Source: an uncultured Granulosicoccaceae bacterium
GTDB lineage: Bacteria > Pseudomonadota > Gammaproteobacteria > Granulosicoccales > Granulosicoccaceae
Direction: 5' to 3'
Length of the DNA stretch: 64,000 nt
NCBI GenBank assembly: GCA_938007995.1
Contig: CALLLW010000040.1
Location: 1 to 64,000, forward strand
The notes beneath the pieces are model-generated. The model ran no database searches and was not told the origin of the DNA. It worked only from the letters and a program-made list of their open reading frames with translations. Both the position numbers and the translations under genes were made by a program. Shown here piece by piece: positions 34,571 through 38,387 of the stretch. Positions within the stretch are counted from its first letter, which is position 1; the number at the start of each line of letters is the position of its first letter.

Positions 34571-36229
34571 ATGCTAGCTACCAGTAAACCACGGATCAGA
34601 TTTATGTCAGTTTGTTTTTTTCGCAAGCATTACAGCTGCGCAGCAATTGTTATTCTGTGCACATCACTAGGGACCTGGAGCTTACCAGCTACAGCTCAAT
34701 CAGGTTTACCTGTGTGCCAGGCCGCAAACAGTGATCCGGATGGTGATGGGTGGGGTTGGGAAAACAACAGCAGTTGTATCGTTGCAGGCAGCGCAGTAGC
34801 ACCAGCCGCAGAACAGCAAACCAATTTTTGTCTTTATCTGTCGAGTGATGATGATGGAGACGGCTGGGGCTGGGAAAATAATGCCAGTTGCAGAGTTGGC
34901 GCAGACACCAGTAACGCAACCCCGGTACAGCGACAAGCCGCGTTCATACCGGTGCTTGACACAAGCGGCAGAGCGATCTGTCAGCTTGAAAATGCCGATC
35001 CTGACGGCGACGGCTATGGCTGGGAAAATAATGCCAGCTGCATAGTCGAAGGAACAGCAGCCGCTGCCGAACAAGACAATGCGACAGCCGCGTGCAGCTC
35101 ACCCAATGCTGACCCGGATGGCGATGGCTGGGGCTGGGAAAACAATGCCTCATGTATCGTGGTGGCAGGCAGCCCGGTACTTACCCCGGAACCTGACAGC
35201 GACATCGATGACAGCAACTCAGTCGATGATGCATCGGTTATTGAAACGCCACAAGAAGCCAATACCGAGCCTGAAGAAACCTCGCCAAACCGATCACTGG
35301 AACCCGATACCGACTTTGCTGAAGATGCAGTCGTGAGCGTTACCGAGTCGCCCGCAAACGAAAACGAAACGGTAGAAGAAAGCAACGCCGAAAACGATAA
35401 CCAAAACGAAAACAAGAACGATGCTGAAGTGGAAAACCAGCAGCCTGCTAACGATAACCCGACTTCACCAGCACCACTAGCAACAGACATTACCGATCTT
35501 ATACTGATTACCGGACAATCCAACACACTCGGTTCCAATACCAGTGTAGACGAAACACTCGATGCACCGCACCCGAGAGTATTCGCCTATACCGATGAGG
35601 GATGGCAGGTCGCAGAGCTCTACCAGACTTGGGATCGTGGCGCACATCCGGGAACCGGCGATCGCGCTGACGTGGATAAAACACACAACAACTTCGCACT
35701 GCACTTTGGCAAGCGACTGACGGAACTCGACGATGATGCCGTGGTGGGCTTTGTCCTTGTGTCTGAGCCGGGTGAAGGTATCAGCCATTGGGACTCGGGT
35801 GCTGCCGGCATGCTACGAGTACAAGGCAAAGTACTGGAGGCAATCAATTCATTACCACACAAATCTGCAATTGATGGTGTTCTGTGGCACCAGGGAGAGA
35901 CCGACTGGCAGCTGGAAGGCACCTCGGATCCGGATGCCAGGCAACCTGCACCGATTGATTACTATCCAGTGCGATTAACCACATTAATACAAAATCTGCG
36001 GCTTGAAAACTGGTATTCCGCTGATGCTCCATTCATTTGTGGTGAAACCATTCAGGCAGTCGGGGTCAACACACACCTTTACGGGTTAAACACAGACGAT
36101 GATCCGCAAACCGCTTGTGTAGAAGGCGCGGGCCTGCCTGCTGTGAGAGATGGCGGCAACCACCTTAACGCAGAAGCACTCCGAACGCTTGGCCAGCGCT
36201 ATGCAGAGAGCTATATACAGTTGCGTTAA
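34571..36229 (+). CDS. Secreted SASA-family carbohydrate esterase with four CBM10-like repeats
   Basis: 552 residues; the ATG at 34604 is an alternative start giving a more typical signal peptide (cleavage near ATAQS). Four repeats of the form C...DPDGDGWGWENNASC lie at residues 49-71, 87-109, 137-159 and 175-197, each framed by two Cys. The GWGWEN..SC core resembles CBM10 modules. A Glu/Asn/Asp-rich acidic linker (about 205-305) follows. The SASA domain (308-550) has ITGQSNTLG (nucleophile Ser) and WHQGETDW. Probable role: extracellular deacetylation of polysaccharide. Confidence 0.85.
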   Translation: MLATSKPRIRFMSVCFFRKHYSCAAIVILCTSLGTWSLPATAQSGLPVCQAANSDPDGDGWGWENNSSCIVAGSAVAPAAEQQTNFCLYLSSDDDGDGWGWENNASCRVGADTSNATPVQRQAAFIPVLDTSGRAICQLENADPDGDGYGWENNASCIVEGTAAAAEQDNATAACSSPNADPDGDGWGWENNASCIVVAGSPVLTPEPDSDIDDSNSVDDASVIETPQEANTEPEETSPNRSLEPDTDFAEDAVVSVTESPANENETVEESNAENDNQNENKNDAEVENQQPANDNPTSPAPLATDITDLILITGQSNTLGSNTSVDETLDAPHPRVFAYTDEGWQVAELYQTWDRGAHPGTGDRADVDKTHNNFALHFGKRLTELDDDAVVGFVLVSEPGEGISHWDSGAAGMLRVQGKVLEAINSLPHKSAIDGVLWHQGETDWQLEGTSDPDARQPAPIDYYPVRLTTLIQNLRLENWYSADAPFICGETIQAVGVNTHLYGLNTDDDPQTACVEGAGLPAVRDGGNHLNAEALRTLGQRYAESYIQLR

Positions 36230-36252
36230 ATGACACTGGCTTAAAAAAAGCT

Positions 36253-36300
36253 ATGCGCGGTAGACTAATCGGGATAAGAATAGAATATCCCATAGCGCAT
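36253..36300 (-). terminator. Bidirectional terminator between SASA and selenoprotein genes
   Basis: Outer pairing ATGCGC (36253-36258) with GCGCAT (36295-36300), inner perfect hairpin GGGATA/TATCCC (36271-36291). On the minus strand the structure runs into seven Ts (36243-36249); on the plus strand into TTTT. It suits the end of the convergent SASA and selenoprotein transcripts. Confidence 0.65.
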
Positions 36301-36337
36301 TTTAAGAAGTGGCTGGTCAGCCATGCAGACCGCTGAC

Positions 36338-36550
36338 TTAAGACATCAATTCAACCAGCTCCTCATCAGTCGGGAAACGATTTGTTGCGTGCTTGGAGTA
36401 TACCAGTGTACCGTCACGGGTTATCTCAAATGCACCACCACGGCCTTCAATCAACTCAATTTCAGTAGCGCCGGTAAGCAAACGATCTCTCGCACGGAGA
36501 GCAGTTGGCTTGTAATTTCACTGTACGCAATATTCAATCGTAAATTTCAT
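36338..36550 (-). CDS. SelW/Rdx-family selenoprotein (in-frame UGA = selenocysteine)
   Basis: 70 residues when the UGA at 36518-36520 is read as Sec (residue 11). ATG at 36550 with GGAG 7 nt upstream, stop TAA at 36338. The protein starts MKFTIEYCVQ-U-NYKPTALRAR, giving the CxxU redox motif exactly where SelW/SelT/SelH (Rdx) proteins have CxxU or CxxC. The later part (EIELIEGRGGAFEITRDG, FPTDEELVELM) also fits the Rdx fold. A stem-loop (CTCTC-CGTGC-GAGAG, 36487-36501) begins 16 nt after the UGA, in range for a bacterial SECIS. Thioredoxin-like cytoplasmic redox protein, 46 bp downstream of the ABC transporter on the same strand. Confidence 0.85.
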
Positions 36551-36596
36551 ATTCAGACTCCATAGAATCGTAAAGTTATATGTATAGGTGTATTTG

Positions 36597-38387
36597 CTAC
36601 CGACCAGCCTGGGAAAACCATTGTCTGCTGTACATGCCTGATTTCGCCAGTAACTCATCGTGCGAACCCTGCTCTGCGACACGCCCGTCACTAAGCACAA
36701 CAATGTTGGCGGCATCTGCAATAGTTGAAAGCCGGTGGGCAATAACCAGTACCGTGCGATTGCGTCCAACTTCTTTTAAAGCATGTTGAATAGCTGCTTC
36801 GGTTTCGTTGTCTACCGCGCTTGTTGCCTCATCTAATATAAGCACACGCGGGTCTTTTACAATAGCACGGGCCAGTGACAATCTCTGGCGCTGCCCACCG
36901 GACAGCTTGACGCCACGCTCTCCAACCACTGTCTGCATACCATCAGGCAACCGGTTAATAAACTCCAATGCCTGGGCAACTTCTGCAGCATGAGTCAGCT
37001 GCGCATCGGTACAATCCGGCTTTCCGTAGCGAATATTGTCTGCGATCGTGCCGTCAAACATATAAACCTCCTGACCAACAAAGCCTATCTGCGATCTGAG
37101 TTCCTGCAACTTAATGTCTGCTATCTCTACGCCGTCAATTGTGATTGACCCACTGTCGGTTGGATAAAAGCGCAGCAACAACCTTGCAACCGTTGACTTA
37201 CCGGCACCGGTAGCACCGACAAGTGCGGTAGTCTTGCCAGCCGGAACCTCAAGGTTAAAATCAGTTAAGCCTGCACCGGAGCCCGCAAAGCGGAATTGTA
37301 CCTCGCTAAACACAATAGTGCCGACAACGGGTTTACTCAGCCTTTGCCGACCTGAATCAACCACCTGCAGGGGTGCTTCAAGTACGCTGAATATTCTGCG
37401 CGTACTTGCCATTGCACGTTCAAACAAATCAATGGTTTTAGCCAGATCCGTTAAAGGCCATAGCAACCGCTGTGTCAGAAAAACCAGAACACCATATGCA
37501 CCAACATTCAGGTTGCCATTCAGCGCCTGCATACCACCATAGACAAACGTAAATAGAAAGCCAACCAAAATGGCCATTCTGATCACCGGGATGAAGGCGG
37601 AACTCACCGCAATCGCCCGACTATTGGCTGCAACATACGCTTCACTGGCTGCCGCCAGTGCTTTTGCCTCCCGCGCCTCCGCAGTAAATGATTTGATTGT
37701 CGCCATACCACCAATATTGTTGGACAACCGGCTGGCAATTCTGCCGACCTGCTCTCTGACATCTGCATATAGCGGTGTGGCACGTCTTAAAAAATAAAAA
37801 GCACCCCAGACAATAACCGGTATTGGCGTGAAAGCCAGTAACGCAATCACCGGTGACAAATAGAAAAACACACCACCGACCAATACCACCGTAACCAGGG
37901 TTTGAATAATGTCATTCGCCCCGCCATCAAGAAATCTCTCAAGCTGGTTGACGTCGTCATTTAAAATTGAAACCAGCTCACCGGAACTATGGTTTTCGAA
38001 ATAACTCATGCCCTGACTTTGCATGTGTTCATAAGTATCCTGCCGCAACCCGGCCTGCAACCTCTGCGACAGGTTACGCCACAAAATCAAATAGAAATAT
38101 TCGAATAGTGATTCACCGGCCCAGATAAAAAACGTCAGCACAGCGAGTACAGCTATCTGTGAGTGTGGAGACTCAAAGCCTAACCCTGCAACAAAGCTGC
38201 TTTCGCGATTGACGACCACATCTATCGCAATGCCGATAAGTATCTCCGGCATCACATCAAACACTTTATTAATCACCGAGCAGCTGGTGGCCAACAGGAT
38301 TTTGCGTCTGTAACCGCGCGCGTAGCGCAGCAGTTTTAACAATGCCGCAAAACTTGAAAGCGAGTCAGTGCTTTTGGCTGAAGTCAC
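36597..38387 (-). CDS. ABC transporter, fused permease and ATPase (MsbA/exporter type)
   Basis: 596 residues, GTG start without a clear ribosome site. An N-terminal six-helix exporter domain (residues ~30-330) is followed by the ATPase: Walker A GATGAGKST, Q-loop IGFVGQEVYMFD, signature LSGGQRQRLSLARA, Walker B RVLILDEATSAVD and the H-loop IAHRLSTI. Homodimeric inner-membrane exporter of lipids, drugs or peptides; the substrate is not evident. The selenoprotein gene follows 46 bp downstream. Confidence 0.92.
   Translation of the reverse strand: MTSAKSTDSLSSFAALLKLLRYARGYRRKILLATSCSVINKVFDVMPEILIGIAIDVVVNRESSFVAGLGFESPHSQIAVLAVLTFFIWAGESLFEYFYLILWRNLSQRLQAGLRQDTYEHMQSQGMSYFENHSSGELVSILNDDVNQLERFLDGGANDIIQTLVTVVLVGGVFFYLSPVIALLAFTPIPVIVWGAFYFLRRATPLYADVREQVGRIASRLSNNIGGMATIKSFTAEAREAKALAAASEAYVAANSRAIAVSSAFIPVIRMAILVGFLFTFVYGGMQALNGNLNVGAYGVLVFLTQRLLWPLTDLAKTIDLFERAMASTRRIFSVLEAPLQVVDSGRQRLSKPVVGTIVFSEVQFRFAGSGAGLTDFNLEVPAGKTTALVGATGAGKSTVARLLLRFYPTDSGSITIDGVEIADIKLQELRSQIGFVGQEVYMFDGTIADNIRYGKPDCTDAQLTHAAEVAQALEFINRLPDGMQTVVGERGVKLSGGQRQRLSLARAIVKDPRVLILDEATSAVDNETEAAIQHALKEVGRNRTVLVIAHRLSTIADAANIVVLSDGRVAEQGSHDELLAKSGMYSRQWFSQAGR

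Follow-up and report, generated by a model that had tools for sequence, protein, structure and literature searches.

In surveys of marine bacteria, SelW-like proteins were one of the most abundant families of selenoproteins (PMC1088965, PMC2398784), and PMC2398784 places them at the top of its Global Ocean Sampling table with 427 sequences of the CxxU type. SELENOW-like proteins with the domain PF10262 and a CxxU motif are also listed among the prokaryotic families in PMC9312934 and PMC13188914, the second of which gives one selenocysteine (Sec) for the prokaryotic form. In eukaryotes, namely in amphioxus and Ostreococcus, a UxxU form of SELENOW has been recorded (PMC7539508). Here, we report a gene that agrees with the family description in PMC1088965, PMC2398784, and PMC13188914. 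It lies in a 64,000-nucleotide stretch of DNA (the window) from an uncultured Granulosicoccaceae bacterium and is almost certainly a SelW-like (Rdx family) selenoprotein gene in which UGA is read as Sec.

The selW-like gene occupies positions 36338..36550 on the minus strand and runs from an ATG to a TAA at 36338-36340, encoding a protein of 70 residues, the 11th of which is Sec. The frame is interrupted by a single in-frame UGA at 36518..36520 (minus strand). With this codon read as Sec, the product starts with MKFTIEYCVQU, which contains the CxxU motif as C8-V-Q-U11. A ribosome binding site, GGAG, was found at 36558..36561 on the same strand, 7 nt ahead of the ATG. A preliminary description of this DNA had claimed a minus-strand frame of 70 residues with one UGA in the Sec place of a CxxU motif, a correctly placed stop, and a good ribosome site, and the sequence bears out all of these. 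It had further stated that standard gene calling would miss or split the gene, and the mechanical listing of open reading frames (ORFs) does cut it at the UGA. The motif alone is weak evidence, as a crude scan for any TGA in a CxxU or UxxC context returned 27 places in the window including the selW site, the only one at which homology was examined. Simple scans of positions 36200-36700 detected neither a sigma-70-like promoter nor an intrinsic terminator, and a search of the window against Rfam at gathering thresholds returned three tRNAs and no match at the selW site.

With the UGA read as Cys, the protein matched the Pfam family Rdx (PF10262) with 64.7 bits against a cut-off of 22.6 (E 9e-18). 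Searching the entire genome in six frames also returned an Rdx match (E 1.5e-14) with one TGA inside the match. Both values speak against a chance frame. The match to TIGR02174 (SelT/SelW/SelH family) reached 55.8 bits (cut-off 34.2), so that two curated cut-offs are exceeded by the protein whose remainder had been described as Rdx-like. The top NCBIfam match was NF041051 (SelTWH_Campy) with 81.7 bits, which is under the model cut-off of 88, and the protein was not counted as a member of this equivalog. A sequence search of the PDB gave six matches, with 2fa8 as the best (E 4.9e-8). AlphaFold, run on 23 aligned proteins from the window and the loci, yielded a model with a mean pLDDT of 91.8, and Foldseek ranked SelW-related structures first (2fa8, E 1.0e-6). 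The predicted structure is a small thioredoxin-like alpha/beta fold, in which the CxxU motif is located at the end of the first strand (residues 2-8 of the model).

To place the UGA in an evolutionary context, we considered the Rdx matches of related genomes. Within the order, 14 of 48 genomes had an Rdx match, and exactly one in-frame TGA was present in every one of the 14, always as CxxU followed by N-Y. A separate scan of named genomes found UGA at the selW site in 20 out of 20 loci. Nine of these genes had already been counted in the order set; the nearest named relatives were labelled Granulosicoccaceae (seven) or Chromatiales (two), and the remaining loci carried labels of other groups, from Verrucomicrobia to Acidimicrobiia. 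At the level of the class, 51 of 369 sampled genomes had an Rdx match, which contained no stop in 49 of them and a single TGA in two. Of 30 class-level loci that were fetched, a motif search resolved 21, all with CxxC; its regular expression did not capture the remaining nine. The homologues carry Sec in the order (14/14) and Cys in the class-level loci that were resolved, and the outcome that the preliminary description had named as refuting, homologues with neither Cys nor Sec at this position, did not occur.

A lone UGA in an otherwise good frame resembles a single nonsense change, and the gene could in principle be a Cys-type Rdx gene broken by such a mutation or by a sequencing error. However, the same codon is UGA in all Rdx-bearing genomes of the order as well as in loci labelled with other phyla, the protein past the UGA stays conserved, and the RNA downstream of the UGA contains a constrained hairpin. 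A pseudogene is therefore extremely improbable, and the evidence on the hairpin itself supports the selenoprotein reading.

This hairpin, the upper part of a bacterial SECIS element (CUCUC-CGUGC-GAGAG), was found at 36487..36501 on the minus strand, corresponding to +20 to +34 when the U of UGA is counted as 1. Bases 20-24 pair with 30-34 and enclose a loop of five bases. Across the 14 order sequences, the stem-loop reads CUCUC-CGUGY-GAGAG, with one G-U variant. The coding sequence is frozen over the same stretch: codons 17, 18, and 19 are GCT, CTC, and CGT in all 14 sequences, codon 20 is GCG (Ala) in seven and GTG (Val) in the other seven, and codon 21 is AGA in 13. Among 28 assessed columns with four- or sixfold degenerate codons, codons 17-21 are the only ones without synonymous variation in the commonest residue, with column 20 resting on seven Ala rows and column 21 on 13 Arg rows. 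By comparison, the other 23 columns, which lie outside the hairpin, averaged 2.84 effective codons.

The position of the hairpin was specific as well. When the hairpin shape was slid along the sequences, at least five of six pairs formed at offset 19 in 14/14 order sequences and 9/11 distant ones, compared to at most 4/14 and 7/11, respectively, at other offsets from 4 to 59. A set of 56 distinct sequences, in which other phyla were represented, had standard pairs in 89.0% of the cells of the six-pair stem. Double changes accounted for 76 cells, while shuffled alignments gave 15.0 +/- 5.0 (none of 500 as high) and slid controls gave 4 to 17; as the shuffles ignore relatedness, this excess of covariation is strong but does not translate into a probability. 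Of the 56 sequences, 31 do not form the outermost pair (19/35) and 51 form the complete five-pair core, and RNAalifold predicted exactly these five core pairs from 24 sequences. GU occupies loop positions 26-27 in 53 of the 56 sequences and is absent from three. Judging from these alignments, distant homologues keep the hairpin through compensatory changes. The whole SECIS possibly extends over 36475..36515 (minus strand; +6 to +46) with a weaker and variable lower stem that forms in many sequences though not in every one, and in which 70.1% of the cells pair (16 pairs, 24 sequences) and two of five measures, the pairs with a double change and the further pair types, were not above shuffles. 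The minimum-free-energy fold of the single sequence was no better than that of shuffled sequences (z -0.31, not significant). Single-sequence stability was therefore dropped as evidence, and the case for the SECIS rests on the comparison between species. A hairpin directly after the UGA with a small G-bearing apical loop is how PMC1088965 defines the bacterial SECIS, and the element found here has this form.

The preliminary description had implied that the organism possesses SelA, SelB, SelC, and SelD. Consistent with this, all four decoding genes are present above curated cut-offs in the genome from which the window was taken (4.69 Mb, 94 contigs, 91.47% complete): selA with 577.9 bits (cut-off 267.9), selB with 395.8 (242.25), selD with 244.2 (125), and tRNA-Sec (selC) with 71.2 (47). 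ARAGORN likewise reported a tRNA-SeC with the anticodon tca. The absence of sel genes, which the preliminary description had named as a refuting outcome, was therefore not observed. In the searches for tRNA-Sec, SelB, and SelD, weak signals occurred in all 14 control genomes, and only matches above cut-off were counted. Such matches were obtained in five controls for RF01852, in two each for SelB and SelD, and in one for SelA. Given five controls compared to two for SelB and one for SelA, the RF01852 cut-off is not specific by itself. Order-wide, SelB was above cut-off in 16 and SelA in 17 of the 48 genomes. SelB was found in 12 of the 14 selW-bearing genomes and in four of the 34 others (Fisher P 1.9e-6, a descriptive value only, as the genomes are related). 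Two draft assemblies with selW, G003 and G012, had neither SelA nor SelB above cut-off; G003 showed an incomplete SelB-like match where one of its contigs ends, and G012 showed none. The G012 assembly (L029/L053) is 94% complete, and its UGA-type selW is cut by a contig end.

Two further features of the genome concern Sec metabolism. SelD forms the C-terminal part of a 724-residue protein (L019:352-2526, contig C14), the N-terminal part of which is a pyridine nucleotide-disulphide oxidoreductase domain. Beside selA, a GrdB/PrdB-like gene with an in-frame UGA (L010:2908-4077, contig C23) is a candidate for a second selenoprotein. It matched PF07355 with 23.4 bits (cut-off 22), whereas TIGR04483 stayed under its cut-off (89.6 versus 300 bits) and none of five NCBIfam matches reached theirs. 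In a single-sequence fold, a hairpin with a CGUG loop follows its UGA. The agreement between this loop and that of the selW-like gene would be expected if one SelB reads both.

The conservation downstream makes translation past the UGA very likely, which would also be compatible with insertion of another amino acid such as Trp, either through a changed genetic code or through leaky read-through. Among 31 long mechanical ORFs of the window (at least 250 codons, selected in order of decreasing length and overlapping slightly or not at all), the stops were TGA in 11, TAA in 11, and TAG in nine, and two of the 11 TGA-ending ORFs stay open for more than 28 codons past the TGA. Because 11 of the 31 end in TGA, this codon is also an ordinary stop here, and a changed code was rejected. 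Moreover, 2fa8 and the 21 resolved class-level loci have Cys as the residue aligned to the UGA, the genome contains tRNA-Sec and SelB, and a SECIS-like hairpin follows the codon. Taken together, decoding as an amino acid other than Sec has hardly any probability left.

On the basis of these results, we propose that SelB, carrying Sec-tRNA(Sec), recognizes the small apical loop of the hairpin that closely follows the UGA, and that selenocysteine is thereby brought to this codon. Translation would then complete 70 residues, as opposed to stopping after 10. The product is predicted to fold as a small thioredoxin-like protein in which the CxxU active site directly follows the first strand. Its most likely role would be that of a thiol/selenol oxidoreductase, or a part in redox regulation through thiols. 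In bacteria, Sec insertion is generally in competition with termination. The UGA might accordingly act in part as a regulated stop, with Sec incorporated only under an ample selenium supply and expression tuned by the hairpin. We regard this as unlikely, given the clear protein-level conservation downstream of the UGA; in any case, such regulation adds to the selenoprotein explanation and does not oppose it.

The genomic neighborhood was compared across the order as well. An ABC transporter gene (transmembrane and ATPase parts; 36597..38387, minus strand) is located upstream of the selW-like gene on the same strand, with a gap of 46 nt. This arrangement, with the transporter directly upstream on the same strand, recurs in nine of the 14 order loci. 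In two others (L025 and L049) the transporter is on the opposite strand, and in three (L027, L046, and L048) it was not found in the available flanking DNA. Because the arrangement varies in this way, we make no claim of a functional link to the transporter. On the other side, a plus-strand gene at 34571-36229, convergent with the selW gene, encodes a protein that combines three CBM_10 stretches with a domain of the SASA type (sialic acid-specific acetylesterase); it adjoins selW in some relatives. Neither a megablast search for plasmids with 12 kb around the selW gene nor a distant blastn search for phages with 301 bases returned a match.

Among the more distant homologues, the locus L033 (labelled Verrucomicrobia, AG-439-D21) has a SelW-like gene with two UGAs. 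A sample of its class (384 genomes) contained 71 Rdx matches, of which 28 had no stop, 41 had one TGA, and two had two. In its order (386 genomes), two TGAs were present in 15 matches from 14 genomes. We read 14 of these 15, omitting a second contig of one genome with an identical 48-base hairpin stretch. All 14 distinct sequences, from 14 genomes, showed U-x-x-U within the pattern YUxxUNY (L033, L105, L114, L115, L116, L117, L118, L119, L121, L122, L123, L125, L138, and L139), and each forms a hairpin of five or six pairs after the second UGA. In a protein tree, the UxxU rows require four changes and do not form a single group in any of 200 bootstrap trees, although the proteins are short, the columns few, and many forks unresolved; a single origin would be compatible with the well-supported branches and may still apply. 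A report of a bacterial UxxU SelW was not found in the portions of PMC2398784, PMC13188914, PMC7539508, and PMC9312934 that were available. With 14 homologues, two UGAs three codons apart, and the same covarying hairpin after the second, these genes very probably represent a bacterial UxxU form of SelW, with a predicted diselenide-type site and possibly one SECIS serving both codons. The CxxU and UxxU genes provide natural pairs in which the contribution of a second Sec and the decoding of two closely spaced UGAs could be studied.

In comparison with known systems, the selW-like gene described here shares with prokaryotic SelW-like (SELENOW-like) genes the match to PF10262 and TIGR02174, the CxxU motif, and the UGA followed by a bacterial SECIS. 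Because SelW-like proteins already rank among the most abundant marine selenoprotein families, the predicted product is a selenoprotein of a known type, common in marine bacteria, and not new in kind. It nevertheless places Sec decoding in this lineage and provides a clean case in which a SECIS shows up as frozen synonymous sites. It also confirms that inspection of a sequence without tools is able to recognize a selenoprotein whose frame is broken off at the UGA in a mechanical list of ORFs. A search of the available literature for Granulosicoccus together with selenocysteine returned no paper. The differences from known SelW-like proteins are confined to details, namely a 70-residue member in a lineage with nearest named relatives labelled Granulosicoccaceae or Chromatiales. 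The predicted fold superposes on the solved bacterial Rdx structures 2fa8, 2oka, 2ojl, and 2obk (best Foldseek E-value as given above), the chains of which are longer, with 103-108 residues, and in the alignment 2fa8 has CxxC where the protein here has CxxU. The SECIS of Escherichia coli fdhF is likewise a hairpin right after the UGA with a small loop bearing G and U; its loop GU lies nearer to the UGA, at about +23/+24, compared to +26/+27 in the selW-like gene.
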